Origin: Cordylochernes scorpioides
Lineage: Eukaryota; Arthropoda; Arachnida; Pseudoscorpiones; Chernetidae
Direction of reading: 5' to 3'
Length of the DNA stretch: 64,000 bases
NCBI GenBank assembly: GCA_030710605.1
Contig: CP092881.1
Location: 70,299,118-70,363,117, forward strand
This document shows, in pieces, positions 11,616-63,835 of this stretch. Position numbers and translations under genes: made by a program. Every line of letters starts with the position of its first letter. Within the stretch, counting starts at the first letter, position 1. The notes under the pieces were generated by a model. That model worked only from the letters and a program-made list of their open reading frames with translations. It ran no database searches and had not been told where the DNA came from.

Positions 11616-11910
11616 TTAAACGAAAAACATGGTGAAGGAAGACGAGTTTCTTTTATTTATGCATAGGTGCAAGCTTTCGGGTAAAAACCCTTCAACAGGC
11701 GAGAAATGTAGCGCGACTTATAAGAACTATGGTACAAATGGTAGGACGGAATAAATATATATAAAAATAAAGTTTTTACACTTTTTATATATGTGTTAAT
11801 ATTAATAGAAGACCGATTTTTGAGAAAAGTAAATATTAAATCTGCAGTCTGCAGTCTGAAACCACGAAACGGCGCATGATTAGGGCTATTGAAATAAACA
11901 TGTGGGAGGT

Positions 11911-12396
11911 CTAAATAAAGGACAAGAGAGGATGATAAGCTTCTGGAAGATCTATTTTTCTGTTGATGCTGTTCAGTTTGTGGGATACTATGGATTCTAG
12001 AATAAGTCTTTGGTGTAAGATATGTATGTGCCTGTAATGTATGGTGGGGTTATTGATGTTGAAAGTGTGGCCTGTGCTCTGCATATGTTGATAAATGAGG
12101 GATTTGGTATCTTGCCTGGAAAGATTACGGGAATGTTCAGTCATCCTGATGGCCACAGATCTACCTGTCTCACCAACGTAAGTGGCAGAACACTGTTCAC
12201 ATGAAACGGACTTGACTGCGCCCATAGAACGAAGAGGGTCAGGAGGAGCTGAGGACTTAGTATGAGGATGACGGAGGAATAAAAGAAGATTCGGGGAGTT
12301 TTTATATATGGTACGGATGCCATAGGATTTAAGTTTTCTGGCTATATCTACTGAGGAAAGGGGGTAAGGAAGAAAGCACAATGATCTGTAAGTCAT
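11911..12396 (-). CDS. PLE B GIY-YIG endonuclease domain
   Basis: Open frame of 161 codons with the Penelope-type GIY-YIG nuclease: VKSVSCEQCSATYVGETGRS, VAIRMTEH, then STGHTFNINNPTI and LILESIVSHKLNSINRKIDL. In PLEs this domain lies at the C-terminus after RT and nicks the target DNA. The cysteine pair CEQC before YVG and the E in RLILESI are typical. RT upstream (12397-12836) is only a fragment, so the copy cannot be autonomous. Confidence 0.9.
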   Translation of the reverse strand: MTYRSLCFLPYPLSSVDIARKLKSYGIRTIYKNSPNLLLFLRHPHTKSSAPPDPLRSMGAVKSVSCEQCSATYVGETGRSVAIRMTEHSRNLSRQDTKSLIYQHMQSTGHTFNINNPTIHYRHIHILHQRLILESIVSHKLNSINRKIDLPEAYHPLLSFI

Positions 12397-12836
12397 GGAA
12401 TGATTGGAAATTGTAGGTGTGTAAGTATATTTATTAATGAAAGAGAGCGGAAAAGAAGCTGCGGAGAGCTGGGTTATGATACGATTTCTTCCTATTATTT
12501 TAAAGATGTCTATGGAACAATGGGTGTATATTCTTTTTGTAAGGGTTCTGACAATATTGATTTTATGGGAGATAGGACAGTGAGAATTGTAGTGAGTGTA
12601 ACAGGGGGGGGCATTGTTTTTTATGATAAACTGTAGTGTGAAATGAGGATGGTGTGCTAATAATTAAAATATCAAGGAATGGGATAACATGGTTAGTTTA
12701 TGTTTCTAGAGTAAAGGAAATACCCTGATTGTAATTATTAAGTGTTAGTAGTATGAAGCTCTCTTGATCCTTTTTGCATATACAGAAGATATCATCAATG
12801 TATCTGCGCCATATTATATATTTATTCCGTCCTACC
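12397..12836 (-). pseudogene. PLE B reverse transcriptase fragment
   Basis: The fragment starts at WRRYIDDIFCIC (catalytic YIDD) and continues QESFILLTLNNYNQGISFTL, then decays through frameshifts to the endonuclease. Everything N-terminal of the YIDD box is missing; the truncation point is the junction with the inverted terminal repeat. Confidence 0.82.
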
Positions 12837-12960
12837 ATTTGTACTATAGTTCTTATAAGTCGCGTTTCATTTTTCACCTGTTGAAGGGTTTTTACCCGAA
12901 AGCTTGCACCTATGCATAAATAAAAAAACTCGTCTTCCTTCACCATGTTTTTTCGTTTAA

Positions 12961-13403
12961 TTTCAAATCAGGAAGAATGATTCAACTATATTTAAATTCG
13001 TTATTACTCCATAACTTGTTTATATTATTTTTAGAGTACTGCCTTCATTCGTATAGCTGAGTCTGGAAGTGCTTGAAAGATATTCAGCAATTATGTCAGC
13101 CATCTGTTTGTTCGTTCTCGCTGTTCATATCGGTTAGAGTATCGGAGGATTAGTGTTGGTTTTGATTGTTTTATAACATTAATTATATTCCAATGATGGC
13201 TTTCATTTTTTGGATCCATTTTTTTTTTCGCAGAATTCTGCCCATTTTTCTTGTTTGAATATCCAAATTTCTTGTTCTATTTGTGGACTAATTTCAATGA
13301 GTTCCTTTATGATTTCTTCTGTTTTATTTGTTTTAAGAAGTTCATTTTTATTGTCTCTCTCTGCAATCATTGCCTCGATATTGTGGTCCTTCCAGTAAAG
13401 TAT
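12961..13403 (-). pseudogene. LINE J linker between endonuclease and RT
   Basis: Minus-strand frame continues from the endonuclease with YWKDHNIEAMIAERDNKNEL and KTEEIIKELIEISPQIEQEI, a charged helical linker usual between the nuclease and RT of LINE ORF2. It then shifts frame. It stops at the right border of PLE B (12960). Confidence 0.65.
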
Positions 13404-14357
13404 TCACAGGTCTTTACGTCTACCTCTAGGTATCGATACTTTTGCAGCTTTGGATATGTTCAAAGAGAATTTTTCCAATTTTTTGTCAATCGTTCTGTGA
13501 TTTAATTCTTCGTTGCACAGTTCTTCAAGCTTTTTCTGTAATATTTTTCCCAGTGTTCTTTTATTCTGTTGTATTTTCTCAATTTTGAATTTTAGGGTTG
13601 TTAAAATTGCTCTGTGGTCACTGATTGCACTTTTCAGAATTTTCCATTGTGTTGTGGGTGCGATGTTGTAATTTATCGCTGTGATGTCTATTGCGGATTC
13701 TGTGCCTGTGGACTTGGATAGATAGGTGTTCTTTTCGTTATTTAACGGCGTAAGGTCGAGGTCGGTTAGCATGTCCTCAACCTGCTGACCTTTGTTATCC
13801 TGGACAGGTGATCCCCAAGTTGGTCTTTCGGCGTTAAAATCACCAAGTATTATCGCGATATCCGAAGACGCTTCACTTAATGTCTCTATCAGGCCTGTAT
13901 TGATGCTAGTATTATCGTGGTGATAAACATATATGATTGGAATTGTTTTATCTGTAAGATAGATTTCTATTGCCTGAGCTTCTGTCGTGCTTTCTCTTGG
14001 CTTACTCTGATTATAGGCGCTTTCCTTAAATTTGATTTCTAGAGTTTTAATCAAAACGGCAAGTCCTCCTCCGAATTTTCCCGGTCTGTCCATTCGTAGT
14101 GTTGTATAATCTTTGATATTGAATCTCAAATTCTGATTCAATTTTGTCTCCTGAGGACAATTAATAGGTACATTGTTGTCACAGAGAAGACATGTCAGCT
14201 CTTTATTTATCTCTGGGTACCATTTATACTGAGTTGTAGTAGATTGAATTTGTGTCCTCGTAGTAGATTTCTCATTATGAGCTCGAGCTGCAGCTCCTGA
14301 CGCGGCGGTTACCCCGGACGCGGTAGCATTACTGGAGATATCAGTTTTGCTTCTCAT
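13404..14357 (-). CDS. LINE J ORF2 N-terminal APE-type endonuclease (partial)
   Basis: 317-codon open frame. Nuclease motifs: CPQETKL, GGGLAVLIKT, IAIILGDFNAERPTWGSPVQ, TGTESAIDITAIN, ISDHRAILTTL (catalytic SDH). Matches the apurinic-like endonuclease of Jockey/I-group LINEs; the usual N-terminal NING segment is replaced by an Ala/Ser/Thr-rich leader, so the real start may be lost. The ORF continues into a linker, is then split by PLE B and resumes as RT at 11615. Adjoins the mariner relic on the right. Confidence 0.85.
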   Translation of the reverse strand: MRSKTDISSNATASGVTAASGAAARAHNEKSTTRTQIQSTTTQYKWYPEINKELTCLLCDNNVPINCPQETKLNQNLRFNIKDYTTLRMDRPGKFGGGLAVLIKTLEIKFKESAYNQSKPRESTTEAQAIEIYLTDKTIPIIYVYHHDNTSINTGLIETLSEASSDIAIILGDFNAERPTWGSPVQDNKGQQVEDMLTDLDLTPLNNEKNTYLSKSTGTESAIDITAINYNIAPTTQWKILKSAISDHRAILTTLKFKIEKIQQNKRTLGKILQKKLEELCNEELNHRTIDKKLEKFSLNISKAAKVSIPRGRRKDL

Positions 14358-17329: not shown

Positions 17330-17466
17330 AATTTAGAAACTTTCATTTTTATTTAGACATTTTCAATTTTAATTTAGACATTTTTCATTTTAATTTAGAC
17401 ACATGGACTTTTCTATGAAGTCCATGCGTCTAAATTAAAATGAAAAATGTCTAAATATAAATTAAA
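17330..17466. repeat. AT-rich tandem and palindromic tract
   Basis: Copies of TTTTCATTTTAATTTAGACA about every 20 bp, then an inverted stretch around ACATGGACTT...AAGTCCATG, directly outside the PLE A left end. Confidence 0.7.
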
Positions 17467-17993
17467 ATTGTAAATAGTTATAAAACGAAGAGAAAATTTT
17501 TTATTTTTACTATACATGGGCTACAAGCTTTCGGGCTTCACGCCCTTCGACGGGTACAACATATTGAGAGAAAATAACGCTATATATAGTATCGATATGT
17601 GAGGAATCTGCATACATAACCATATACGAGTTAACTATATCAGATTAAGTTATGGAAATAAGGCTTTTTTTATAGAAATATTTGACGAAAGTAGGATGTG
17701 ATGCTAATTAAAAATTAAAATGAAAAACTAAAAATATTTTGACAGATTTAACATAACTAAGACTATTGCAATTTATAGAAGAACATATGATCATCTATGG
17801 ATGTCAAACAACTTAAACCAATGTGATGTTATATTAAAAAACACCAACAGTGAGGAACTATGGCATGGCCCGCCATCAGCGCGATCATCGGACAAAGGAA
17901 AAAATTTTTTTTATATAGGGGTAGGTTTCTGGGTGGGGGGGTGGTTTGTTTGCGGTGGGATTAACAGTAAGATCAGGGAAAGAAGTGAACGGC

Positions 17994-18505
17994 CTATAGG
18001 TTATTACAAATATCTAAATACTGCGATGGTATGTCGATGTGTCTGTTAATACTATGGTTATTGATGGATAAAATAGCTTCAATGATCAACCTTTGGTACT
18101 TGGTATTGACACCAGAGTACAGGGTGGTAGGGGAGGAAAGGTTGAATGAATGGCCGGTGGTGTTAATATGGTTGTAAATGAGCGACCTGTTGTCTTTGTT
18201 GGCAATGCATCTACCGTGTTCGGTCATTCTGATGGCCACGGACCTACCAGTCTCGCCTATGTAAGATGCACTGCAATCGTTACAAGAGACTGAGTAGACC
18301 GAGCCACCAGAGGACCGAGCAACGGTAGATCTAGGTAATCTGGTGATAGGGTGTCTGAGGATGGCGCCGATACTATTGCTATTAGTAAAATGGGTGTTAA
18401 TTCCGTGCGTTCTGAGGATGCGGGAGATGGCGACTGATTGGGTGGAAAAGGGAAGTAAACAACTGTTTCTGGTAATTGCAGGAGGTCTAACGGAAGAAGG
18501 GTCAA
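17994..18505 (-). CDS. PLE A GIY-YIG endonuclease, left copy
   Basis: Minus-strand frame with SVYSVSCNDCSASYIGETGR, SVAIRMTEHGRCIANKDNRS, LIYNHINTTGHSFNLSS and LIIEAILSINNHSINRHI: the Penelope-type GIY-YIG nuclease with CX2C before YIG. It is downstream of the RT frame but shifted by one base at a 9-nt C run (G run at 18527-18535 on the plus strand); RT stops shortly after the run. Otherwise open. The right arm holds an almost identical copy. Confidence 0.9.
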
Positions 18506-18513
18506 ATTTATAC

Positions 18514-20205
18514 TTATGTATGAAATGGGGGGGGGTATTGGGACCGGGCCAACTGTTTAATGATTAGGGATAATTCAATGGTTCTAAACAGTGGAAGGGA
18601 GCAGTGGGTGAACAATCTCTTGGTAAGAGTACGGACAGTATTTATTTTATGCGATAGGGGACAAGAAGATTTGAAGTCTGTATAAAATGTGGGATTGTTA
18701 ACCTTGTGGTATACGGTGGTGTGGTAATGAGAGGCAGTACGTATGACCAGTATATCAAGATACGGCAATACGGACCTGTTTTCCAATTCTAGGGTGAAAG
18801 AGATCTCGGGATGATAGGAGTTTAGAGAATCTAAAATATTGATTTCTTGTCCGGTATCACATATGCAGAAGATATCATCAATATATCTCCGCCACATGTG
18901 AATGCCCGGTGCAATTTGCTGTTGGACCCAGTGGTCTATGTTGGCCATGACTATTTCTGCAAGTGGGGAGGATAGTGGGCTGCCCATGGGCGAGCCTCTG
19001 ATTTGTTTGAACAACTGGTTGTTAAATGTAAAAGTAGTAAAGTCCAAACACAGTGAGGATAGTGCGACTATGGATTCTGCGGTACGGTGATCTACCTGGT
19101 TATCCTGTAAGAAATTAGTCAAGTGCCTAATGATAAGCTGGTGGGGGAGGGAAAGATACATGGCAACTACATCATAAGACACCATAACGGTGTTGGGGAC
19201 AGGGCAGAGAGAGTTAACGGATTGCACAAATGAAGGGATATCCCTAATGGCAGAGGATTGTGGACTGGCCTTCACCCAAGGTGTGAGAAAGCCAGTCAGA
19301 TATTTGGACAGCTTATAGGCAGGTGAAAGATGGTAGGCTATGATGGGGCGTAGGGGGATGCCAGGCTTATGGGTCTTAGGAAGACCATAGATATAGGGGG
19401 TATTATTAAGGTCGGAGGTGAAAGTACTATATTGATCCGGTGTTATGTGACCCGATTTTTTCAAACGCAATAACCCCAATCTGAAAGATTTAGTTGAGGC
19501 AGATGCGTCAGACTGTGTAATGGGAACAAATGTATTGCGGTCGCTGAGTATCTCCGTCATCTTGGAGGCATAGTCAGCCGTGTCCAAGACGACGGTCTGG
19601 GAACCTTTATCCGATCTGGTGACTATAATGTTAGGGTTTCGCCTTATGGTAGCCAGGGAGCGGTACTTACCAAGAGATTGGGACTGAGAAGGGGATTGGG
19701 ACTGAGAAGGGGTGGGTTTCCGGAGGATATGGGCTATGGAACTCCGTATGTCATATTGGGCTGTGTGGGAAAGGGAGCTGATGGCGGGCTCAACACCAGA
19801 AATAATTCTGGGAATGTCAGGCGTTGTGGGAGGACGGTACTTGAGGCCTAAGGAAAGAACCTCGGTCTGCGAAGGAGACAACACTGTAGATGACAGATTG
19901 AGGAGAGTGGGAACCGGTTGGTTGTCGGGGTGAAATTCCTCTGGGAAGCCATATTTGCTGATCCAAAAGGATAGCTTCTTGTATTGACGCCCTTTAATGA
20001 TGCTGTCCTGCTGTCTGATGTCGGCGGTGAGGAGACCAAGGAGTTCAACCATATTGGATTGGGATATGAGATTGGTGACTTGGGAAATGACGCCTTTAAT
20101 GGTCTTGGACAAGCAGCGTATTCGCGAATAACATCCCTGGGTTCTAGCCCATAGTAATTGGCGTTGGGATCGGAGGATAACCCTGTTCGAATGAGAATTT
20201 CCCAC
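18514..20205 (-). CDS. PLE A reverse transcriptase
   Basis: 563 codons, Penelope-type RT. Motifs in order: GLPKTHKPGIPLRPIIAY, VMVSYDVVAMYLSLPHQ (motif A), FNNQLFKQIRGSPMGSPLSS (motif B), WRRYIDDIFCIC (catalytic YIDD), ISFTLELENRSVLPYLDILV, then SCPLSHKINTVRTLTKRLF. Length fits RT plus the start of the linker; a full PLE protein is usually around 800 residues including the nuclease, here split off by the C-run frameshift. The N-terminus is close to the junction with the inverted copy and is probably truncated. Related telomerase-like RTs share this fold. Confidence 0.93.
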   Translation of the reverse strand: MGNSHSNRVILRSQRQLLWARTQGCYSRIRCLSKTIKGVISQVTNLISQSNMVELLGLLTADIRQQDSIIKGRQYKKLSFWISKYGFPEEFHPDNQPVPTLLNLSSTVLSPSQTEVLSLGLKYRPPTTPDIPRIISGVEPAISSLSHTAQYDIRSSIAHILRKPTPSQSQSPSQSQSLGKYRSLATIRRNPNIIVTRSDKGSQTVVLDTADYASKMTEILSDRNTFVPITQSDASASTKSFRLGLLRLKKSGHITPDQYSTFTSDLNNTPYIYGLPKTHKPGIPLRPIIAYHLSPAYKLSKYLTGFLTPWVKASPQSSAIRDIPSFVQSVNSLCPVPNTVMVSYDVVAMYLSLPHQLIIRHLTNFLQDNQVDHRTAESIVALSSLCLDFTTFTFNNQLFKQIRGSPMGSPLSSPLAEIVMANIDHWVQQQIAPGIHMWRRYIDDIFCICDTGQEINILDSLNSYHPEISFTLELENRSVLPYLDILVIRTASHYHTTVYHKVNNPTFYTDFKSSCPLSHKINTVRTLTKRLFTHCSLPLFRTIELSLIIKQLARSQYPPPFHT

Positions 20206-20329
20206 AGGATCTGCGACTCTGAGAGTTGTTCACCCACTGCTCCCTTCCACTGTTTAGAACCATTGAATTTTACCTAATCATTAAACAGTTGGCCCGGTCC
20301 CAATACCCCCCCCCCCCATTTCATACATA

Positions 20330-20850
20330 AGTATAAATTTGACCCTTCTTCCGTTAGACCTCCTGCAATTACCAGAAACAGTTGTTTACTTCCCTTTTCC
20401 ACCCAATCAGTCGCCATCTCCCGCATCCTCAGAACGCACGGAATTAACACCCATTTTACTAATAGCAATAGTATCGGCGCCATCCTCAGACACCCTATCA
20501 CCAGATTACCTAGATCTACCGTTGCTCGGTCCTCTGGTGGCTCGGTCTACTCAGTCTCTTGTAACGATTGCAGTGCATCTTACATAGGCGAGACTGGTAG
20601 GTCCGTGGCCATCAGAATGACCGAACACGGTAGATGCATTGCCAACAAAGACAACAGGTCGCTCATTTACAACCATATTAACACCACCGGCCATTCATTC
20701 AACCTTTCCTCCCCTACCACCCTGTACTCTGGTGTCAATACCAAGTACCAAAGGTTGATCATTGAAGCTATTTTATCCATCAATAACCATAGTATTAACA
20801 GACACATCGACATACCATCGCAGTATTTAGATATTTGTAATAACCTATAG
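20330..20850 (+). CDS. PLE A GIY-YIG endonuclease, right (inverted) copy
   Basis: Plus-strand copy of the nuclease in the right arm, same sequence motifs as 17994-18505. It is preceded by a short piece of RT end (RTIEF...IKQLARSQYP) and a 12-nt C run (20286-20297), three longer than in the left arm, so the frame relation RT to nuclease is the same in both arms. Lacks RT, hence non-autonomous. Confidence 0.88.
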
Positions 20851-21377
20851 GCCGTTCACTTCTTTCCCTGATCTTACTGTTAATCCCACCGCAAACAAAC
20901 CACCCCCCCACCCAGAAACCTACCCCTATATAAAAAAATTTTTTCCTTTGTCCGATGATCGCGCTGATGGCGGGCCATGCCATAGTTCCTCACTGTTGGT
21001 GTTTTTTTAATATAACATCACATTGGTTTAAGTTGTTTGACATCCATAGATGATCATATGTTCTTCTATAAATTGCAATAGTCTTAGTTATGTTAAATCT
21101 GTCAAAATATTTTTAGTTTTTCATTTTAATTTTTAATTAGCATCACATCCTACTTTCGTCAAATATTTCTATAAAAAAGCCTTATTTCCATAACTTAATC
21201 TGATATAGTTAACTCGTATATGGTTATGTATGCAGATTCCTCACATATCGATACTATATATAGCGTTATTTTCTCTCAATATGTTGTACCCGTCGAAGGG
21301 CGTGAAGCCCGAAAGCTTGTAGCCCATGTATAGTAAAAATAAAAAATTTTCTCTTCGTTTTATAACTATTTACAATT

Positions 21378-22419
21378 CTATAAGAGAAATTTTCATGATT
21401 CATGTAATAAATTAAAATTGTCTAATTAAAAGTTAAAACCTATGTATAATATATATTATATATAACAAACCTCCTATGTTTAAATTAAATTACAAATTCA
21501 TAATTTTTTAAATTATCTTAATGGTATTATTGTATTTAATTATAATTATATTTAATTATAATTGTATTTATTCTCCCGCTATGTGGTGCCAGGCGTGTAG
21601 GCCATGTGTAATTGCGCTCTCCACTACAAAGCGGAACAAAAAGGTATTTTGTTTTAAATTTTTACTACTCACTATTTTTTTGTCTTCTAAATATTATATC
21701 TAGTTATTTAATAATATCTAGCCAAATATATATAGAATTACTGATTATATTTAATTTCATCTATATAGTTACATTTTAGCAATATGCAAAATTTACCGCT
21801 GTTTTGCATAATCTCAAAGTGAATCACGGCTATAAACAAAAGGCCTATTCGATAATTAAAATTTTCAACTTTTAGGAAATTTTGTCGATTAACTTTTATT
21901 TCTTTTGAATTTAACATGGGTTGGAATTATTAAATTTCGGTTTATACAAGGTTTTCCCTAAAGTTCGTAAACACTTGCTGAAAATTGAAATACCAATATT
22001 ATTCGCCATAATATTATTCGCCGTTATGTATAATGTCTTTGTATTATGTATAAAGTAATTGTAATATGTATTCGCCGTAATAATATTATTCGCCGTTATG
22101 TATAATATCTTTGTATTATGTATAAAGTAATTGTATTATGTATTAATTTGTCTTCGCCGTAATAATATTATATTAATTAATAATAGGTTGAATTTTATAT
22201 CCGTTAGATTTTATTATTTTATCGAACCCAATCGGCTGACGTGAGTAGAATTCTCTACAAAGGATTAAAGGAATGTTTTTGAAGGTGGCTATCAAATTTC
22301 TTTAAAATATTGAATGTATGTTATCATATTTATTTGAATAAAGGTAAAGCTTCGATATTATCATGATAGATTTTGGTGTATACATAGAGATTGATGTACA
22401 AAATTAATTTGTGAAATTA
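21378..22419. other. AT-rich with an ~80-bp tandem duplication
   Basis: No gene. At 22005-22165 a unit with ATTCGCCGTTATGTATAAT and TTGTATTATGTATAAAGTAA is repeated in tandem. The rest is AT-rich without recognised features. Confidence 0.6.
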
Positions 22420-23770: not shown

Positions 23771-23837
23771 CATCGCCTCAAGTCTTCAATTCCATAAGCG
23801 CGGAGCAGAAATAGGGATTAAGTTATTAATACACAAT

Positions 23838-24010
23838 ACTATATTTAATTAAAAAGGCATATATTGGATCAAAATATCATTATTTTACCAATATTTCAGT
23901 TGGCTGAATGTCAACCTTTATCAAGGTATTATAACATATTTAATGTGTGTCAACAACAAACTCAGCGCCACATAACATATTTATGGATTGCTCTATTTTC
24001 AAAATAATAC
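23838..24010 (-). mobile_element. Family G terminus, half of a foldback
   Basis: AAAAGGCATATATTGGATC, ACCAATATTTCAGTTGGCTG, TCAACCTTTATCAAGG and ACTCAGCGCCACATAA, then ATGGATTGCTCTATTTTCAA. Same sequence as the left arm of 31085-31495; the inverted arm is absent. Confidence 0.75.
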
Positions 24011-24489
24011 TATATACAGAACTAACTTTACAAATTCTATATTAGCTGTTAGATACTTTGTGTGCATTTCACTCAAAGGTTAAAATAAACTTCCTAAAAA
24101 TGAATATTTTTCGATTTTTTTTTACCAAATGACTACACTTAGTAAAATAAACCTTTCTAAAAATCAGTTATTTTTACAAAAATATCGTAATTCTGAATAA
24201 ATACAAAATTTGTAAATATGTTTTCTTGTGAATTAAAATATTTCCTGACGCTATTTAATTATAAATGTTCCGAAGGGTGGTTCCTGAATTTCGATCTGCA
24301 CGAAATCTTCTTCATTAGGTTTTCTTTATTAAATATTTTAAATCAATAACCGGGGGAGAAGTTGGCGGTACGAACGCTTAATTTCCCAAACATAACCCGG
24401 GATTCAATTTGATAAAAAATGCTGCGTGTTCTTCGACTTGCATAATTCAAACCAACCAAAAGATAAAAATTAAGAAAATTAAAAAAGGC
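24011..24489. other. AT-rich, nothing recognised
   Basis: No frame or repeat recognised. Confidence 0.5.
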
Positions 24490-24760
24490 CTCTCCTTATC
24501 GTGCAACTGAGAGTTACTGATGGCTTGGAGCCTTCTATCGTAATAAATTTCAACTATTCTCGTTGATATTGAATCATTCCAGAATGGCGTCAAAATACCC
24601 ATTATTGATTAATCAAGAAACACTAACCACATATGCGTTTCGGGCTGTTGGCTCTCATCAGTGTAGTGCAAGCTGAATATTAACGAGAATAGCTGAAATA
24701 TATTCCGATTGATGGCGCAAGCCATCAGCAACTTTCACTTGCACGATGTACAAATTCAAT
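24490..24760 (-). mobile_element. Family A foldback with hammerhead
   Basis: Left part is a minus-strand copy of the 5160-5400 repeat with its hammerhead. Right part (24680-24755) is the same 3' region inverted (GAGAATAGCTGAAATATATT, CAAGCCATCAGCAACTTTCA). So two 3' ends face outward, as in the PLEs. Confidence 0.8.
24626..24667 (-). ncRNA. Hammerhead ribozyme candidate, family A copy 2
   Basis: Minus strand: stem I 5' strand ACTACA (24662-24667), core CTGATGA (24655-24661), stem II GAGCCAACAGCCC (24642-24654, one A/C mismatch), GAAA (24638-24641), ACGCAT stem III, cleavage-position A (24632), stem I 3' strand TGTGGT (24626-24631). Stem I pairs at all six positions, including one wobble, with bases different from copy 1. 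That is compensatory change. Confidence 0.8.
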
Positions 24761-25950: not shown

Positions 25951-26102
25951 TAAATCTAATATAAACAATATTTTATTTTTTATAATTATAATTTCTAGAA
26001 CAAACTACTATTTTAAGTCGACCGCCAGATGTCGCGACTTTCCTTATATAAACGCATTGTTGGAAAAGTTGCCGGGAGTAAATTAATCCATAGAAACAAT
26101 GT

Positions 26103-26307
26103 GCGCTTCTCCCGTCAAAATAAACGTCAAAATCTGACGCCACCTAGACTGACAAGGGCCATTAGCCCGAAACCATGGTCTCTAGGTGGACGTTATCAGT
26201 TTGCCAAAGTTGGTGTTGTGGCTTTGTCACCGACCCGAGGCCGCTAGTTGCGGCGACGGTCAATAGATGGCGTCAGATTCTGACGTTTATTTTGACGGGA
26301 GAAGCGC
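26103..26307. mobile_element. Inverted-repeat element family E, copy 3 (complete)
   Basis: 205 bp with terminal inverted repeats GCGCTTCTCCCGTCAAAAT and its complement at the right end, extending ~38 bp with few mismatches. It contains a hammerhead-like motif (26141-26188) and GACCCGAGGCCGCTAG. Related copies at 6359, 6650 and a remnant at 36385. Confidence 0.82.
26141..26188 (+). ncRNA. Hammerhead-like motif, family E (G8 changed)
   Basis: Stem I 26141-26148 (CACCTAGA) pairs perfectly over 8 bp with 26181-26188 (TCTAGGTG). Core CTGACAA at 26149-26155 (canonical CTGANGA, so G8 is A). Stem II GGGC/GCCC with loop CATTA. GAAA at 26169-26172, then the self-complementary ACCATGGT (dimer-type stem III) and C26180 at the cleavage position. 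G8 is catalytic, so this copy is probably inactive. Confidence 0.75.
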
Positions 26308-26330
26308 CCATTGCTTCTATGAAACCCATA

Positions 26331-26915: not shown

Positions 26916-26951
26916 AAAAAAAAAATAATAATAAAATAAGCGTAACAGAAG

Positions 26952-28395: not shown

Positions 28396-28502
28396 CGCCT
28401 ATAACTACTTACCATTTTAATGATTTCAATATTCTATAAGATAACAAAGGAAGAACTGAATATTTTCATAAGTTTTGAAAATAGAGCAATCCATACTTAA
28501 TT

Positions 28503-28721
28503 CATTAGATAATAAAAGGCATATATTGGATTTAATAAAAGATTTATTTTTCCAATATTTCGGCTGGCTGAACGCCAACCTTTATCGAGGCATTACATTA
28601 GGTGTATACAGTTTGTGTATACAAAAATGTAATGCCTCGATAAAGGTTGGCGTTCAGCCAACCGAAATATTGGCAAAATAAATCTTTTATTAAATCCAAT
28701 ATATGCCTTTTATTATCTAAT
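28503..28721. mobile_element. Family G foldback, perfect-looking palindrome
   Basis: Arms 28504-28612 and 28625-28721 are inverted copies (ATTAGATAATAAAAGGCATA, GGATTTAATAAAAGATTTAT, CCAATATTTCGGCTGGCTGA, ACGCCAACCTTTATCGAGGC) around a short spacer. Each arm holds the hammerhead-derived string AAAGGTTGGC, a loop, GCCAACCGAAATATTGG. Confidence 0.88.
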
Positions 28722-28785
28722 TTTCATAAGTTTGAAGATTTATATAGATAAATACATTATTATTAAAGTGCATTCAATTCTATAT

Positions 28786-29605: not shown

Positions 29606-30043
29606 AAAAAATATTTTTAAAAAATTTATAACTAACATATGCCCTCGTTAAATTTGAACCAATTATAGTATCTATAGAGCTGAAGATATTTATCGTCAAC
29701 ATTGTAATAGTCTCTTACTGATTGCTTCCACACAACGCGCGCGTGTATGGTATTAATATAAAATAAAGTAATTGAATTAATAAAGATAGTTGGTTTGTAA
29801 CTTAAACCTCTTAGAACACAACTAAATGGTATTAGAGGCATGTGGATTGAACGACGCTCTGCTACTATTTTTGGGGGTTTTGAGATTTAAGATACAAAAA
29901 CCAACTCCTTTTATTATTTAAATTAATTTATTATAAAATTGATAACAAACACATTATGTAGCAATCAGTAAGAGAACAGTTACAATGATGATGATAAAAA
30001 TCTGCAGTTTTATTGATAAAATATTTATCTATGAATTTTATAA
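29606..30043. other. Nothing recognised
   Basis: Non-coding. TGATAACAAACACATTATGTAGCAATCAGTAAGAGAAC near 29940 recurs at about 31030, so it is part of a longer dispersed repeat. Confidence 0.5.
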
Positions 30044-30890
30044 CTAACATTTATCGTTATTTTTCATGTTAAATCTACATGTACATATAAGGTAATATAT
30101 TGTGATAATATAAAAGAACAAAAAGGAGATTATTGTGTAGAACAATCCGCTAGTTTTCGAATGGCATCCTTCTTCAACGGGCGTGAAGATAAAGCATAAC
30201 AATATGTAGAAGTATAATGAGAGACAAGTAATATGCAAATATGTAACTAACATAATGGCAGATAGAATTACGTAGTGAGAAATTAAACCAGTTATGTAAA
30301 TCTATTTATTTAGATTGAAAACTCTAGCTGTCATTGTGGCAGCGAATATCAGGATTCAAGACACCTACTGCTGGAATGCCCACTCTTCTTCACCGCTAGA
30401 CAACAGACAATAAATAATGTTGTAGATCTATATCAATTTGTAAATAGCAGAGAGAATTATCATAGATTTAGCTATTTTTGAAAATATATTTATGATTTTC
30501 TTTCAAATCTGAAAGGCTCAGGTTCCTAATATATATTATTGTTTCTCTTTTTATTTCGATTACTTTTTCTTGTATAATATGTTTATAACTGTTTCTGTTT
30601 AAAAAAATGTAAATCGGCGCAATTATCCCTAGCCGGGATATCGCGTATTGTGTGTTGAAATAAAATAAATCGATTTATTTGGGTAAGAAAACATTACTTT
30701 ATGATTATTTCTGCCATCATGTAAGTTACAAATTTGCATATAAATTGTCTATCATTGTACTTTTACATATATTTATGCTTTATCATCACGCCCGTTGAAG
30801 AAAGATGTCGTTCGAAAGTTATCGGAATGTGCTACACAAGAATCTCCTTTTTGTTCTTTCCTATTATGGCAATATAATAATGGTAAAAGT
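30044..30890. mobile_element. PLE-type inverted termini enclosing a LINE 3' fragment
   Basis: Left terminus (minus strand) with CTTCACGCCCGTTGAAGAAG and ATTCGAAAACTAGCGG at 30140-30200, and an inverted relative at 30770-30860 (ATCACGCCCGTTGAAGAAAG, TTCGAAAGTTATCGG). Both are followed outward by related AT-rich sequence. The centre is a LINE 3' end. Confidence 0.65.
30310..30665 (+). pseudogene. LINE ORF2 C-terminus and 3' UTR, copy 1
   Basis: Codes for SCHCGSEYQDSRHLLLECPL and VVDLYQFVNSRENYHRFSYF, the CX1CX8-9HX4C zinc motif at the end of Jockey/I-group LINE proteins. 3' UTR contains TTATCCCTAGCCGGGATATC and ends in AATAAAATAAAT. A related fragment is at 34620-34880 on the other strand. Confidence 0.72.
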
Positions 30891-31084
30891 TATTCTCTAC
30901 ATCCATCAAAATATAAGACAAAGCGTAGTTCAATCCACTGATCTCTAATACTATTTTGATGTCCTTTTTAAAGGTTTAATTTACAAACAATCTCCTTTTA
31001 TTATTTGAATTTACTTATTTGATATTGATAACAAACACATTGTAGCAATCAGTAAGAGAACAATCACAATGATGGTAAAAAATC

Positions 31085-31495
31085 TTTAATTAAAAAGGCA
31101 TATATTGGATCAAAATATCATTTATTTTACCAATATTTCAGTTGGCTAAACGCCAACGTTTATCAAGGTGTTATAACATTTTAAAGTGTGTCAACAACAA
31201 ACTCAGCGCCACATAATGTCAACAGCATTAAGGTTTTAAAAATATTTTGTTATATTCAATGGGGAGAAAATATACATAACATAATATAAATATATATATC
31301 AAAATATTTCTTCCCATTGAATATAACAAAATATTTTTAAAAACTCAATGCTGTTGACGTTATGTGGCGTTGAGTTTGTTGTTGACACACTTTAAAATGT
31401 TATAGCACCTTGATAAAGGTTGTCGTTCAGCCAACTGAAATATTAGTAAAATAAATGATATTTTGATCCAATATATGCCTTTTTAATTAAATATT
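31085..31495. mobile_element. Family G foldback, long arms
   Basis: Arms 31085-31270 and 31295-31495 are inverted: AAAAAGGCATATATTGGATC, CAATATTTCAGTTGGCTAAA, TTTATCAAGGTGTTATAAC, GTCAACAACAAACTCAGCGC, then a shared TTATATTCAATGGG. Flanked right by ATGGATTACTCTATTTTCAA. Confidence 0.88.
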
Positions 31496-31821
31496 TATCT
31501 ATGGATTACTCTATTTTCAAGATGATAAAAATATACAGTTCAATTGATAACGAATTTACCTATGAATGTTATAGCTAACAATTATTACTATTTTTCATGT
31601 TAAATCTACATGTACATATAAGGTAATATAGTTAGGAAGAATATTGATCCATATTAATCTTATTGTATATAGGAAATATTAAGGAGGAAGATAACTGACA
31701 AAAGTTGTAAGGGCGGTAGTTGCTATCGGACTTCTCAACTCCAACTGTCTCGGCGCACGCCAAAGTTGGAGAGCGGCGCATGCGTACAGTCCTGTGGGGT
31801 CCGGAATGAGTCCGGAGTGCG

Positions 31822-32854: not shown

Positions 32855-33230
32855 TTTATGATTGTAAAACGACATTTTAAAATATCCCGCATGTGTTTCT
32901 TTTAAAGGAAAAATCGAAACTTATTTAAAGGAGAAATAACGACTATTTCCAACCTTAGGGATGAGGTATGAAATATTTAATTGTGAAGAGTGATGCCTAT
33001 TGTGAAGGGTAGCCTAGTGGACATGGCATCTACCCGGTAAACTAAACACTGTGGGTTCGAATCCCATCCCTGGACACTTTTATTTTTCTGTTTATCATTA
33101 CTCTTCTCACAATTCATCCTTTCATACTTCATCTCTAAGGTTGGAAATGGTCGTTATTTCTCCTTAAAATAAATTTCGATTTTTCGTTCAAAAGAAACAC
33201 ATGCGGGATAATTTTCAAATGTCGTTCTAC
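32855..33230. mobile_element. Foldback SINE pair with tRNA-like centre
   Basis: Arms 32861-32990 and 33105-33230 are inverted: AACGACATTTTAAAATATCC, CGCATGTGTTTCTTTTAAAG, AGAAATAACGACTATTTCCA, ACCTTAGGGATGA. Between them sits the tRNA-like 33005-33073. Single arms also occur at 40880-41035 and 60755-60920. Confidence 0.8.
33005..33073 (+). other. tRNA-like SINE head (not a functional tRNA)
   Basis: GGGTAGCCTAGTGGACATGG resembles an A box (TAGCCTAGTGG) and GTGGGTTCGAATCCCATCCC a B box with T-arm pairing. The acceptor and anticodon arms do not close properly, and the body belongs to a repeat family, so it is a pol III SINE head. Confidence 0.65.
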
Positions 33231-33244
33231 ATATTCATCTATGG

Positions 33245-38829: not shown

Positions 38830-39045
38830 ATTAAAGATAATTCGGCCAGTAAATCTTTTTTATTGTCTCGACGTTTCGACAAAATTCTTTTGTCCTCGTC
38901 AGGAGAGAACAAACGCCCTTACAACCTTAGAATATTTTTTAACGCTTTGCCAAATATACTCATTTTTGTTCGCTCCTTTTTGTCGTATCGTCGAGATAAT
39001 AAAAAAGACTTACTGGCCGAAGTATTTTTAATTTGAAGAACATAT
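38830..39045. mobile_element. Family B foldback with hammerhead
   Basis: Left arm CGGCCAGTAAATCTTTTTTA and the minus-strand hammerhead; right arm GTCGAGATAATAAAAAAGAC, TTACTGGCCGAAGTATTTTT in the plus direction. Two outward 3' ends around a short unique centre. Confidence 0.85.
38862..38910 (-). ncRNA. Hammerhead ribozyme candidate, family B
   Basis: Minus strand: stem I GTTCTCTC (38903-38910) against GAGACAAT (38862-38869): 4 bp, one C/C mismatch, 3 bp. Core CTGACGA (38896-38902), a 7-bp GACAAAA/TTTTGTC stem II with loop GAA, GAAA (38874-38877), self-complementary ACGT and C38870 at the cleavage position. One extra G precedes stem II compared with the textbook core. Confidence 0.75.
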
Positions 39046-39059
39046 TACAAAGTTATTAT

Positions 39060-39345
39060 AAATAATTTTAAACACAAGGTAATAAGACCAAATCCAAATA
39101 ATTAAATAGTGTGTGACGTTTCGGTAACAGCGTTGTTACCATCTTCAGACAAAAGTACTGAATGAGAAATTTTACCACAGCATGTTTTAAATAGTTACTG
39201 TTATCAAGTGTGTAAACAAGATAGCAGATAAGAAGAAGATAATTTTCTGAGAAACACTAGAATATTATTCTTAAATGGTAACAACGCTGTTACAGAAATG
39301 TCATACTATTTATTTATTTGGATTTGGTCTTATTGACTTGTGTTT
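39060..39345. mobile_element. Family C foldback with hammerhead
   Basis: Left arm ACAAGGTAATAAGACCAAAT, GTGTGTGACGTTTCGG and right arm AACGCTGTTACAGAAATGTC, ATACTATTTATTTATTTGGA, TTTGGTCTTATTGACTTGTG in inverted orientation. Confidence 0.85.
39112..39151 (-). ncRNA. Hammerhead ribozyme candidate, family C
   Basis: Minus strand: core CTGAAGA (39142-39148; CTGANGA with N=A), a 7-bp GGTAACA/TGTTACC stem II, GAAA (39119-39122), ACGT, C39115 at the cleavage site, and a 3-bp stem I (TGT 39149-39151 with ACA 39112-39114). One extra T precedes stem II. Confidence 0.68.
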
Positions 39346-39405
39346 ACAATCTATAATTCAAATTGTGCTTTATGAAATAATTATAATATTAATATATTTT
39401 CATCA

Positions 39406-41035: not shown

Positions 41036-41349
41036 ATTATGTTATATAGAAGAATACGTATCTCCTATACAGATGGGACCTTGAATAGGCGTTAGTTATA
41101 TATAAATATAACTTAAGATTACATTAATTAAAGGGGCTAAGTGAGGAGCCAATCGAGTTCAGTCCAACAGAGAAACAGATAAAAGAAGATACAAAAAACT
41201 AACCTCGCTGAGTTCTTTCCACTCTGGCTAATGACCCACATCTGAGAAGTTCGGTTTACAGAAAGTTAAAACAATCCTGTGATTTTTAAAGTCAGTAAAT
41301 TTATCTAAATTTTTATTTTGACGATAACCTTTTAAACTTATAAAATTAT

Positions 41350-41610
41350 CTTAAAATCAAAGATACTTCAGCCAGTAAATCTTTTTATTATCTCGATGTT
41401 TCTACAAAAATATTTTGTCTTCGTAAGGAATAAATAAAAATTAAAGAAGTTGGCAAGACGTTAAAATTATTCTAACTTTAGAAAAATTATTAACGTCTTG
41501 CCAAATGTTTTAATTCTTTTTTCTTTTTGATCCTCACGAGGACAAATGATGTTTGTCGAAACGTCGAGATAATAAAAAGATTTACTGGCTGAAGTATCTT
41601 TAATTATAAG
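41350..41610. mobile_element. Family B foldback, decayed hammerheads
   Basis: Left arm TCAAAGATACTTCAGCCAGT; right arm CGAAACGTCGAGATAATAAA, AAGATTTACTGGCTGAAGTA. Left core reads TTACGAA, right core CTCACGA, so both are mutated. Centre contains an inverted TTGGCAAGACGTTAA/TTAACGTCTTGCCAA. Confidence 0.8.
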
Positions 41611-42289
41611 AATTATAATTAAACGATTATTAAAAAAAATGCTAAAAGTCTGTCAGTTGGCATGTTAATGAGAGGGTCTAGCTCACCAATGGTGAACGTT
41701 CTCAACGGATTATCCTGTTCAATCTTCCAGACTTCTAAACATGTTTCAGAAATTATTCCACTTGTATGGCGAGTATTTGAGAAGCTACATTCTAACGATA
41801 AGACCATCATCTATTAGATGCAAGTATAGAATATCCATGTGTATCCATTTATAGCTTTGGTCAGCTTACTTAAACCTAGAAAGCGTCAAGCAAGGCAATC
41901 AGAATGAGATAGTTAAAGTGTACTAAGGTTAGTTAACGACACTAATCCAGGCCTCTGTTTTAACTTCTTTAATATTTTTTTTTCTTATTTGCAGAGACAA
42001 ATTCCTGTGTGTATTTGTGGAAATTTAAGTGAAAATTAATATGTAAAAATAGCGTGAATGTTATACTCACCCTCTGAAATAAACTTCTGTTTTAGAAGGG
42101 AGGAGGTGTTTGAAATATAACATCAATCATGTAATTTAAGCTTGAAGTTTAGAATGTTGAAGCACATCGATAAATTACCATTTCTGCTGTAATATTATTA
42201 TAAGGGCCTCTCTCATCATTTCTGAACAATCACAGGAGGTATTTTACTATCGTATTTGAATGTTAACACCCTAAGATATTCATTTTAGA
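41611..42289. other. Nothing recognised
   Basis: A T2-like GGGTCTAGCTCACCAATGGT at about 41675 is too decayed to call. Otherwise unremarkable. Confidence 0.45.
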
Positions 42290-50789: not shown

Positions 50790-51120
50790 TGAAAGCTTTA
50801 TTTATTTTATGAAAATGCCATTTTATATAAAAACTGGTTTGAAAATGTGGCTTTTTTTTTGGATTGTAATAAGATTATTTATTAATCCAATATTTGGATG
50901 GACCAATCGTCTATCTTTTACGAGGGTATTTGTTATGAAGCACACAGCAGGTCGCGTGCTTCAGGTGAGCCACGGACGTCTTACAACCTGCTGTGTGTTT
51001 CATAACAAAAGAACCTCGTAAAAGATGAACGATTGGTCCATCGAAATATTGGATTAATAAATAATCTTATTAAAATCCAAAATAAGCCATATTTAAAAAT
51101 ATATATATAGTATGGATTGC
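50790..51120. mobile_element. Foldback element, family H
   Basis: Arms from about 50845-50950 and 50985-51095 are inverted: TCCAATATTTGGATGGACCA, ATCGTCTATCTTTTACGAGG, TTATGAAGCACACAGCAGGT against ACCTGCTGTGTGTTTCATAA, CCTCGTAAAAGATGAACGAT, TGGTCCATCGAAATATTGGA. Flank TATGGATTGCTCTATATTCA as in family G. Confidence 0.85.
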
Positions 51121-51380: not shown

Positions 51381-51454
51381 TACTGGAAGTTCAATAGTAT
51401 ATTGTTTCTGGAGCTTTATTCTCTTATCATAAGTTAGATTGTGAAATAATTGCA

Positions 51455-51735
51455 AATAATTTAAACGATATATCAATCGAAATAATTGCATAAAGTTTCT
51501 TTATTGGATAAAAGCGGCAAGCTTTCAAGCGTTAGCTCATCATCAGGCCAATTGTTTCGTAAATTCCTACAATATATATATATGTGGTGTAGGAGGTATT
51601 TACATATGTAAACCTCTATCTACATATTGTAGGAATTTGCGAAACAATTGGCCTGATGATGAGCTAACGCTTGAGAGCTTGCCATTTTTATTGAATAAAG
51701 AAACTTTTGCAATTATTTCGATTGGTATATATCGT
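51455..51735. mobile_element. Family D foldback with hammerhead
   Basis: Arms 51465-51580 and 51620-51735 are inverted: CAATCGAAATAATTGCATAA, AGTTTCTTTATTGGATAAAA, GCGGCAAGCTTTCAAGCG against TTGAGAGCTTGCCATTTTTA, TTGAATAAAGAAACTTTTGC. Confidence 0.87.
51515..51551 (-). ncRNA. Hammerhead ribozyme candidate, family D
   Basis: Minus strand: TGGC (51547-51550) pairs with GCCG (51515-51518) as a 4-bp stem I; core CTGATGA (51540-51546), stem II GAGC/GCTT with loop TAAC and one extra T, GAAA (51523-51526), self-complementary AGCT and T51519 at the cleavage position. The inverted arm at 51653-51680 has GAGA in place of GAAA. Confidence 0.68.
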
Positions 51736-51827
51736 TTATTCTCTTATCAATTTGTCGTTAAAACAAATTCCGATTCAAAGTGTCTCTTTAAAACTTGGCA
51801 TTTATTAAAATCAATAAGCAATAAGAA

Positions 51828-54052: not shown

Positions 54053-54118
54053 TATTCTTGACTTGTTTTCGTTCAGAGTTAGTAAGTTATTTTCTCGAGA
54101 GGTTTTCAGTATATTGAT

Positions 54119-56340: not shown

Positions 56341-56370
56341 TTCTCTTCTGTTTGTATTTACATCCAGTTA

Positions 56371-61035: not shown

Positions 61036-61989
61036 TTGACTCTTGTAGAGTCCTAATATCTATTTATATATCCCTCTTATTTTGGTAGGACGGGCCCTGT
61101 CTTAAGTTATAGCACTCGGCAGAAGCTTGTATCTAGACATGCTGACCTGGCTTCAAACCCATCATATATTATCATTGTTCGACTTGTCAACCGAAGTCTC
61201 CTAGTCCTAGGACCATATTATAGAATCATGGCCAGCAGTTGAGCTTCCAGAGAAATACAAACTTAGGATTTGCACAATGTGTTTATGACTAGAGGCATAC
61301 CTGATGGAATAAACCACTTGTTCCTATCTAGTAGAGATAAAATATCTTGGTATGATGGCATTCATCTGCGAACACATCTCCCTTAAAATGATATAAAACA
61401 AGGAATTTGGTTCATTTTCTCTGCCAAGAATGAACAGATCAGTAGTGCAGCAAAACTTCGCTCTTTCTTTGTAAAATGTATGCACTAAAACCAACCTATT
61501 CACCATTGCATACAATGACCATCAAAAAGTGAGGCTGCGATATCGACACGTTCTGAAAAAAAAAAACAATAATAAAACAACACTCGTTCTTATCTATGTG
61601 AAACACCTTTTGATTATTTATTTCTTAGAACTGAAGAAATGTCTTGGGTCTATCGACGTTAAAACCCCACACATTTACATGCTGAAAAAAATATATTTCA
61701 AGAGTAACAATGGTTTTTAATAATTAAATGTTTGCTTTTATTGAGAATAAAAGTTTCAACAATTTTTTATAATATATCTCTCACACGCTTTGTGGACCAA
61801 TTGAAGGAACTCAAGACGGTCGCCAAAATGGTACACTGAGCTCAAGACAGAGATGGCTGGTGTCTCATCGTGTTTGGGATGTGATACGTACAGTTGGCCA
61901 CAAAGTTTGATCGCGAATATAATGATTGTAATGTAATAATCTCTTTTCTCCCTCTTCTAGGAATGCCACATATATAACCATTTATCTTC
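61036..61989. other. Nothing recognised
   Basis: No feature supported. Confidence 0.45.
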
Positions 61990-62110
61990 ATTTAAAAATC
62001 ATATATTGGATCAAAATATCATTTATTTTGCCAATATTGGTAAAAGAAATGGTATTTTGATCCAATATATGCCTTTTTAATTGAGGATTCATGGATTGCT
62101 CTATTTTCAA
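61990..62110. mobile_element. Family G minimal foldback
   Basis: CATATATTGGATCAAAATAT, CATTTATTTTGCCAATATTG then inverted ATTTTGATCCAATATATGCC and ATGGATTGCTCTATTTTCAA. The motif-containing part is deleted. Confidence 0.75.
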
Positions 62111-62204
62111 AAATATATAACCATTAGTTAGACAGCATCACTAATTTTTTAAGGCGACGATGGAATTAACTCTGTCCACTGGGCAGAGAGAACCTGGTGT
62201 CTGA

Positions 62205-62550
62205 GCTGGCGAGATGCTCCAAAGGCACCCCGAATCTTGAAAAAGTCCAACCCCACCAGTGAGTTCAAGTGCCAAACGGGGCTCTGGCACATTTGTAAGT
62301 GCAAAAGTCGAACTGATTTTCACATGTGTAGACATGTGGTGCACTTACAGTAAAAGAAGTCGCCTATCTCTGCCCACCTTGATTATCGTGGCCTGTTCCA
62401 TGTGTACTAAGGATAGATAAATAAAAGAAACAATCCAGGGCCATGTTTCTTTAACTACTTTTTTATTTATCTAGCTCTCAGGCCAACATGCCTCTCAACA
62501 AGATAACTAGAAGTATGACTTCCAGCTAACTATGCAGGCCTAATTGAAAT
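62205..62550 (+). mobile_element. tRNA-headed SINE copy 5 (head lost) plus shared 3' sequence
   Basis: Body from AAAAAGTCCAACCCCACCAG to GATAGATAAATAAAAGAAAC, then CAATCCAGGGCCATGTTTCT, ATGCCTCTCAACAAGATAAC, TAGAAGTATGACTTCCAGC, as at 52140-52240. Confidence 0.8.
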
Positions 62551-63364
62551 AAACGAATTGGCACCATGATTATCATGGCTTGTACCAGGTGTACTAGGGA
62601 TAAATAAAGAAAATTCAATCCAGCAATAATTGCTGAACTAGATTTCTCTCAACATTTGGCAAGACAAATAGAGAATGAACTGTTTAAAAAATAAATAGAT
62701 GCCTTAATGAAGTATTCAGATTCAAAATTGTGCTCATTCCCCAGACATGGCATAATAGGAAAGACGGCAGCTGTATCGACCAGTCAACACACCTCACTGC
62801 CTCCCAATACACCGGCTCTTTGTGCCTGGAAGTTCTTTATTTGCCAAGTTCCGGCAGATAGCATAGAATGGAGAAATGTTTTTTCTTCTTCTTCTTTAAA
62901 ACTAGGGTGTTGAATAAAATGTGGGTGGAATTGGATTTTACTTCTTTTAATATACTGACGTGTCAACAATACGTATCGTTTAGGTGTCACTTTATATTTG
63001 AATATGGTACATTGGGGTAAATTTGTTACAATTGTCTTTAGAGAAAATATTTCAAATTTTGAAGATTTGGTGCGTCATCATGTTGGATTCTATTTTTCTA
63101 CACTGTTCCTTGATGAAAGAGGAAACTTGTTCTTCAAAATCTCTTAGGTTATTGTTATCTATGACTGCCATTTTTTACCAAATTTTCATCGTATTTTCTC
63201 GTTAAAAAGGTTTAATTGTGAAATTCGAAAGAATTTATACAGTTCCTTTAGCGAGGGAAGAGTAATTTACTGATATTTGGAAAGATCCATATTGTACAAG
63301 TGTGTTTTAACCGCAATGCTTAAATCTACATGCGCTTCGTCGAACCATTCTTTTTTTATAATAA
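62551..63364. other. SINE tail duplicate, otherwise nothing recognised
   Basis: ATGATTATCATGGCTTGTAC and TAGGGATAAATAAAG at 62567-62612 repeat the SINE end. No coding sequence supported. Confidence 0.5.
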
Positions 63365-63555
63365 GAAATTTAAACTAATTTTGACGTGTATGATTCTTTT
63401 CAAAATAAAACAATTTTCTACTATCTTGACTACAATGATGAATATGATTATTCATTATAATCAGTAATATTTTTCATGACAGTAAGGGGACAGTAGAAAA
63501 TTTTTCTATTTAAAAAAGAATCATACGTATCAAAATAGTTTCAATTTATTATAAA
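63365..63555. mobile_element. T2-family foldback, short
   Basis: TTTAAACTAATTTTGACGTG, TATGATTCTTTTCAAAATAA, TTTTCTACTATCTTGACTAC and inverted CAGTAAGGGGACAGTAGAAA, AAAGAATCATACGTATCAAA, ATAGTTTCAATT. The inner CTGATGA part is missing. Confidence 0.75.
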
Positions 63556-63674
63556 AGATGATGCAATATATCATATTTTCATTGCCAATTTTCTTCAAAG
63601 TGCGTATTTAAAAAGAATGAACGGAATGTAGTTTATTTGGAGGATCATCGGAGAATAATACCATGAACACTTGA

Positions 63675-63835
63675 TGTTTTTCAAATTAAAGATACTTCGG
63701 TCAATAAATCTTTTTTATTGTCTTGACGTTTTGACAAAAATCTTTTATCCTCGTCAGGAGCGAATGAAAATTAAAACATTTGGCAAAGCGTTAAAATAAA
63801 AAATATTTACTGGCCGAAGTATATTTAATTTGAAT
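63675..63835. mobile_element. Family B foldback, right arm truncated
   Basis: CAAATTAAAGATACTTCGGT, CTGACGA on the minus strand (63751-63757) with GAAA decayed to AAAA, and the inverted tail ATTTACTGGCCGAAGTATAT, TTAATTTGAA. Confidence 0.8.

Follow-up and report, generated by a model that had tools for sequence, protein, structure and literature searches.

Head-to-head insertions with a single tail in Cordylochernes scorpioides point to asymmetric two-ended priming by Penelope-like elements

A 64,000-bp stretch of the genome of the pseudoscorpion Cordylochernes scorpioides (C19:70299118-70363117, here called the window; host assembly 2.62 Gb, 24 contigs) yields over 20 palindromes or inverted pairs on self-comparison. 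They include two coding Penelope-like elements (PLEs), PLE A and PLE B, and small palindromes such as the mini-hammerhead family F2. In these insertions, two arms stand head-to-head with their 3' sides outward, and one of them carries a short tail. The outward orientation had been noticed in a sequence-only reading of the window. The rule of one tail per pair had not, and it is the stronger of the two. Orientation, single tail, target duplications, fixed outer ends and variable centres are all observed. They are probably the outcome of asymmetric two-ended target-primed reverse transcription by PLE machinery.

The one-tail rule emerged from a sample of 264 kb composed of the window and 20 arbitrary 10-kb stretches taken at round coordinates. 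A scan for palindromes spanning at most 1.5 kb yielded 56. PLE A exceeds this span; it was added to the list and one palindrome cut by a locus end was removed, which left 56 with full flanks for the duplication and tail test. A target duplication was called clear at a score of at least 12, the 99th percentile of the control in a first scan. Inspecting the junctions for target duplications, as the sequence-only reading had advised, revealed clear ones at 14 of the 56 palindromes. All 14 adjoin one end and sit 18-50 nt beyond the other, the interval being the Penelope 'tail'. This means 14 one-tailed palindromes, none without a tail and none with two. Among 160 mismatched flank pairs used as control, one pair each fell into the classes 'one' and 'none' at this score. 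The first scan had found a score of at least 12 for 8 of 15 hammerhead-type palindromes (PLE A, PLE B, those near 28.5, 38.8, 51.5 and 62.0 kb of the window, L009 and L026) and for one of nine others (29.7 kb). There, too, every duplication adjoined one end and lay 18-50 nt past the other; for L026, an alternative duplication is located farther out.

Inverted 3' ends, one tail and a target duplication are all present in PLE A and PLE B, and likewise in the PLE A copies L076 and L078. Both window elements consist of the following parts:

17457..17470: left target duplication of PLE A, ATAAATTAAAATTG, 14 bp, adjoining the tail-less arm
17471..20225, minus strand: tail-less long unit of PLE A with reverse transcriptase and endonuclease open reading frames (ORFs), RVT_1 match at E=2.3e-10
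20226..21376, plus strand: tailed arm of PLE A, 5'-truncated, inverted copy of the 3' 1.15 kb
21377..21406, plus strand: one-sided tail of PLE A, 30 nt
21407..21420: right target duplication of PLE A, ATAAATTAAAATTG
17525 (minus) and 21290 (plus): strict hammerhead motifs of PLE A
11605..11616: left target duplication of PLE B, TAACTTGTTTAT
11617..12814, minus strand: longer tail-less unit of PLE B, an endonuclease-end coding remnant with broken frames, inner limit approximate
12815..12961, plus strand: short tailed arm of PLE B
12962..13011, plus strand: tail of PLE B, about 50 nt
13012..13023: right target duplication of PLE B
11671 (minus) and 12878 (plus): strict hammerhead motifs of PLE B

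PLE A has a reverse transcriptase domain of the PLE type. Its best relatives are C. scorpioides proteins, and a 96% relative is present in this species. Several protein relatives, P0005 and P0015 among them, carry PF01541 GIY-YIG. The endonuclease ORFs of the window had no Pfam match at 1e-3; a YIGETGR motif was recognized by eye.

The two arms of an insertion are alike in sequence. Over 1145 compared positions, those of PLE A differ by small indels and 2 substitutions; in PLE A insertions as a whole, arms differ by 1-5 substitutions over 708-1588 compared sites. The tailed arm of PLE A begins 1.6 kb into the reference unit; the tail-less arm extends about 1.6 kb farther toward the 5' end. L076 has a truncated tailed arm, and its tail-less arm, which runs through a tandem junction, is longer than a full unit. 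The same asymmetry is seen in L078 and L066 (the far end of L066 is outside the view). In tandem copies of PLE A, the tail sequence reads on into the next unit. Altogether, the tailed arm is the shorter one in nine of nine asymmetric insertions: PLE A, PLE B, those at 26.1 kb and 23.8 kb of the window, L015, L024, L066, L076 and L078. These nine were read singly and are not a blind sample; L014 and single-orientation copies were left out. At 23.8 kb and in L015, the inverted piece is the tail alone, and no duplication was found for L015. Since in several insertions each arm holds sequence that its partner lacks, neither arm is a DNA copy of the other.

This bears on self-priming (snap-back), in which a single complementary DNA (cDNA) or antisense RNA bends back at its head to serve as its own template and so yields a head-to-head inverted repeat, as was proposed for the PLEs of Adineta (PMC3846280). 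Self-priming fits the head-to-head order, the palindromic centres and the likeness of arms within one insertion, and some dyads lie in natural palindromes, e.g. TTTGTATACAAA in L045. However, the tailed arm has 3' sequence absent from the other arm, the tail-less arm of PLE A, L076 and the 23.8-kb insertion has extra 5' sequence, and some centres contain filler absent from the unit. Published antisense self-priming (PMC3846280) does not account for this mutual overhang. Together with the one-tail rule, the overhang disfavours self-priming, which we consider unlikely. The same overhang leaves template switching, which the sequence-only reading had offered as one route, unsupported in that form, and likewise the self-copying of one cDNA.

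Two successive ordinary insertions, the first of a PLE-type element and the second into or beside its head, could be favoured by the preference of PLE nucleases for AT-rich, element-like targets (PMC11167929) and by a PLE fragment that stands head-to-head with an F2 unit at L062/L014. Yet, a single duplication brackets the whole pair and every clear case has one tail. Moreover, the few substitutions between PLE A arms contrast with the other scored PLE A places, which match the query at 96-99%. Two successive insertions are very unlikely.

The small family F2 displays the same architecture in many copies. Its members and relatives in the window are:

28462..28475: left target duplication, ATTTTCATAAGTTT
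28476..28503, minus strand: tail, on the left arm
28504..28721: mini-hammerhead palindrome with two head-to-head arms, strict motifs at 28554 (minus) and 28637 (plus)
28720..28733: right target duplication, adjoining the tail-less arm
23834..24015, minus strand: F2-type insertion whose tailed arm is the tail alone (23979-24005), joined to a tail-less arm and flanked on either side by duplication ATATAGTATT (read by eye)
31080..31496: F2-type palindrome, arms longer, right tail, weak duplication (score 8), motifs at 31132 (minus) and 31410 (plus)
50843..51094: F2-related palindrome with F2-like tail sequence on the right, motif at 51016 (plus), no duplication found
61970..62125: F2-type palindrome cut off before the hammerhead, tailed on the right, with a 13-bp duplication ATATATAACCATT; oriented by relatives and tail

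The palindrome at 28504-28721, without tail sequence, served as query for gathering F2 copies; 40 places were scored among 835 candidates, 34 of these copies being fetched by place and 6 taken from the search itself. A single-arm query of 82 bp gave no matches. Five copies had repeated flanks by eye (L007, L033, L038, L047, L056), so that the non-duplicate set comprises 35. By alignment, 39 of the 40 copies have one tail, none has two and one (L057) has none; tails in L004 and L007 are doubtful, which leaves 37 clear one-tailed copies. The tailed end is located at unit position 243-245 in 39/39. The tail-less end lies at 213-215 in 24/39; 14 copies have it at 218-228 and one at 202. To judge by the printed flanks, ends beyond 215 are probably alignments running into the flank; the one at 202 is taken as an alignment that stopped short. 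A duplication score of at least 9 was reached by 21/40 copies vs. 8.75% of 800 mismatched pairs. The immediate flanks are about 85% AT compared to 68% farther out. The centres vary: 5' ends differ between the two sides, overlaps occur, and 9/35 non-duplicate copies contain filler of at least 6 nt, which matches the flanks over 10 nt in one of nine cases and over at most 8 nt in the others. With centres this variable, most F2 copies appear to have become palindromic at insertion.

In F2 copies whose arms differ by at least 8 nt, the tailed arm is shorter in 10/12. Position 167 (C or A) could be scored in 30 copies; in 17 of them the two arms carry different bases, and the difference goes both ways. 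This fits two templates, i.e. RNA variants, and a mutation hot spot would give the same. Position 167 sits 3 nt past the predicted cleavage site. A nearest-neighbour test was uninformative: the partner arm is the unique nearest in 3/70, and divergence amounts to 3.6% within and 5.1% between copies.

A foldback DNA transposon or miniature inverted-repeat transposable element (MITE), or a palindromic RNA, copied whole as a ready-made palindrome would agree with the common termini and arms of F2 copies and with the similar centres found at different sites in L031/L042 and L004/L005. The signature of such DNA elements, a duplication adjoining both terminal repeats, was found in 0/14 palindromes with a clear duplication. 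In addition, the variable centres and a truncation that is mostly central and not at the outer end speak against a ready-made palindrome, which we regard as highly improbable. The palindromes are not foldback DNA elements. Hence, the class of 'foldback ribozyme elements' suggested by the sequence-only reading is too narrow and partly wrong: centres differ between copies, and the palindrome appears to be made at insertion instead of being inherited as a unit. Foldback artefacts are known in long reads, but an assembly or read artefact can be practically dismissed: the arms have diverged, the flanks have duplications and a one-sided tail, and the structure recurs at 35 F2 loci whose flanks differ, a tail score being available for 34.

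Insertion by asymmetric two-ended target-primed reverse transcription could proceed as follows. The PLE endonuclease would make a staggered cut in AT-rich DNA, which would later become a target duplication of roughly 10-18 bp. Both 3' target ends would prime reverse transcription. At one end, synthesis beginning at the distal of two RNA start sites would yield a cDNA with a tail of 20-50 nt; at the other, a proximal start site would give a tail-less, often longer cDNA. The two cDNAs would extend toward each other, and their heads, the 5' side of the RNA, may be joined via short homology or a few filler bases. If cDNAs grow inward from both target ends and are joined at their heads, the head-to-head, tail-out order is necessary. 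The same machinery might insert coding PLE RNA, mini-hammerhead RNAs, retrozyme-like RNA and a transfer RNA (tRNA)-like short interspersed nuclear element (SINE). What we infer here is the enzyme, the joining route and the participation of both target strands in a single event. Alike arms and shared markers indicate that one source copy usually supplies both templates or that one RNA is used twice. In L1 twin priming, both target strands prime as well and the heads meet in the middle, the arms being two parts of one RNA. Unlike this, both arms start at RNA 3' ends here and overlap. The proposal of one integration mechanism of the twin-primed kind, common to coding PLEs and several small families, is supported.

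The orientation rule is real. The strict hammerhead pattern comprised the core, stem II and GAA plus a self-complementary tetranucleotide followed by any base but G, and was searched on both strands. A count of pair orientations over the 264 kb yielded 10 outward and 0 inward palindromes with a strict motif, all head-to-head; these form about seven families by grouping and are not ten independent cases. When one core mismatch was allowed, an outward motif was present in 15 palindromes and an inward one in 2. By the strict motif search, PLE A is head-to-head and tail-out, too. The sequence-only reading had stated that the paired termini at 13 loci always point 3'-outward. This applies to 12, two of them by eye only. 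Those oriented by motif search have a hammerhead-like motif on the minus strand in the left arm and/or on the plus strand in the right arm. At 42290-42800, polarity is undefined, because this locus is without motif and belongs to a MITE-like repeat. 'Always paired' was an overstatement, as single-orientation units and direct tandems (PLE A on C8 and C1, for example) occur beside inverted pairs. The window contains 17 strict motifs; first-order resampling, repeated 20 times, gave 0.6 on average. As the pattern was composed after the window palindromes had been read, the 20 other stretches provide the fairer count, with 9 motifs in 200 kb where the chance rate predicts about 2.

Further palindromes in the window are:

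38773..39051: F1 palindrome, left tail, 13-bp duplication AACATATTACAAA at both ends, motif at 38870 (minus)
39060..39386: F4 palindrome, right tail, weak duplication of 12 bp with 1 mismatch, motif at 39115 (minus)
41324..41630: F1 palindrome with a one-core-mismatch hammerhead on the plus strand in the right arm, no duplication found
51415..51749: F5 palindrome, left tail, 15-bp duplication TTTATTCTCTTATCA at both ends, motif at 51519 (minus)
29622..30050: palindrome lacking a strict hammerhead, tailed on the left, 17-bp duplication (1 mismatch)
24498..24747: F3 palindrome, degenerate hammerhead on the minus strand near 24635 (by eye), no duplication found
30093..30879: PLE-type palindrome whose degenerate motifs read tail-out by eye, no duplication found
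26089..26321: retrozyme-like element; its left arm is short and tailed, its long right arm has a fuller hammerhead (26147-26180, plus); duplication not detected by script
32863..33231: tRNA-like SINE, head-to-head, tail on the left arm, tRNA-like head at 33006-33071, duplication not detected

The signature is common to the coding PLEs, F1, F2, F4, F5, the small PLE-type palindromes, L024 and the tRNA-like SINE; F4 shows it by weaker duplications and the 26.1-kb element by eye. The tail of the latter was matched by eye to that of L024. In both, the tailed arm is without the hammerhead of the other arm, which by eye is of the type I kind. The tandem direct repeats described for retrozymes are absent from these two copies, whose arms are inverted, so that they were not filed as retrozymes. 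L024 is inserted in a MITE-like repeat whose copies at window positions 34140 and 42295 have the target word once and, thus, represent a paralogous empty site.

The tRNA-like SINE at 32863-33231 reached 26.1 bits with the Rfam tRNA model, below the cut-off of 29, and ARAGORN found no tRNA in it. Its tail is alike in L025, where it lies on the opposite side. An inverted partner occurs at 8 of 40 scored places (3314 first-look candidates genome-wide), and in 8/8 the minus copy lies left of the plus copy, i.e. tail-out. No recognizable ribozyme exists in the inserted part of this SINE or of L025, so that the label 'ribozyme elements' does not hold for them. For the retrozyme-like element and the SINE, the shared signature suggests insertion by PLE machinery.

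Lunse and colleagues reportedly described in 2017 small hammerheads that act as dimers, are associated with PLEs and have a very short stem III and a self-complementary tetranucleotide. In F2, by comparison, 65 of 70 arms have U3/A8 instead of C3/G8 in the predicted core, which amounts to a Watson-Crick exchange at catalytic core positions. Rfam gave no hammerhead match at the gathering threshold or at E<=10; weak Rfam microRNA matches were put down to long hairpins.

Pen2a of Adineta vaga is one of the closest known systems. It combines reverse transcriptase and GIY-YIG with inverted head-to-head 3' ends, a short duplication and a 31-bp tail at one inverted end (PMC3846280). For Pen2a and relatives, the inverted pseudo-long terminal repeats (pLTRs) and the tail were described, the tail being called optional and the structure ascribed to self-priming (PMC3846280). 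In contrast, every clear case here has one tail, the arms of several insertions are not mutual copies, and small non-coding families are included. With PAc (Poseidon of Anolis carolinensis), both target strands were cleaved and extended in vitro, with AT-rich targets and two adjacent internal start sites between which the tail sequence lies (PMC11167929). The consulted part of this in vitro work does not describe head-to-head products and leaves second-strand synthesis and later steps for validation (PMC11167929). Our proposal goes beyond PAc in that a typical insertion would use both start sites, one at each target end. Metazoan retrozymes are small, non-autonomous tandem repeats with type I hammerheads (PMC7229834); unlike these, the 26.1-kb element and L024 are inverted pairs with a PLE-type tail. 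Retrozymes 'may rely on PLEs' (PMC8969392). Full-text searches of open PMC articles returned nothing recognized as describing PLE priming from two ends or PLE-type insertions that are palindromic and non-coding. The one-tail rule together with the mutual overhang of the arms offers a concrete, testable answer to how PLEs insert. It would also tie small palindromes, which are easily annotated as MITEs, to PLE machinery. The chances appear evenly balanced for a broader statement: that PLE integration is intrinsically two-ended, so that every complete insertion draws on both start sites, one per strand, and ends up head-to-head with exactly one tail, that PLE enzymes are a general mobilizer of small RNAs such as mini-hammerheads, retrozyme-like RNAs and tRNA-headed SINEs, and that many 'MITE-like' palindromes in PLE-rich animals are such retro-insertions.

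Several observations weigh against asymmetric two-ended priming. No duplication with a score of at least 12 was found in 42/56 palindromes. Seven PLE A loci were judged for structure (L064, L065, L067, L068 and L070 end inside the element or in tandem and were excluded), and three of these (L069, L075, L077, two of them long) are single-orientation and tailed, with no duplication at the ends checked. Across all F2 copies, the tailed arm is shorter in 20, longer in 13 and equal in 6 (p=0.30), and the palindromic form of the gathered copies was selected for, because the query was a palindrome. The like centres of the two F2 pairs mentioned above belong here as well. F2 marker 119 is shared by both arms in all 7 minor-allele copies and confined to one arm in none; for markers 131 and 154, the numbers are 5 both and 2 one each, and for marker 177, 6 both and 9 one. 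As arms often share markers, templates are not random draws. L008 is a single unit without tail, and for the long, tailed F2 unit of L014 no partner from F2 is clear. PAc had no preference of either strand for a start site in vitro (PMC11167929), so that one tail per insertion is not explained by it. Finally, the putative link to a PLE enzyme is drawn from the signature alone.

Two candidate cases were rejected. On C24 and C2, PLE A pairs seemed to have two tails; read by eye, however, each pair has one end (L072, L073) that continues into a next tandem unit, so they are not clear counterexamples. At L014:660-900 and L062, a decayed fragment of a PLE reverse transcriptase-endonuclease and a tailed F2 unit face each other head-to-head; a possible mixed PLE-F2 insertion is not claimed, since its duplication lies only within simple TA sequence. 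L062 also contains, at 1449-2423 on the minus strand, a long ORF that by eye resembles a mariner-type transposase.

The window harbours some other repeats and remnants:

34153-34427, 42290-42800 and 63354-63556, also L010 near 330-400: MITE-like repeats with palindromic arms, no hammerhead
46956-49233: 87-bp minisatellite, 26 copies
26946-27857: retroelement Gag-like ORF, PNMA above and Retrotrans_gag below the cut-off
53081-57372: remnants of non-long-terminal-repeat (non-LTR) retrotransposons, reverse transcriptase at 54122-54700

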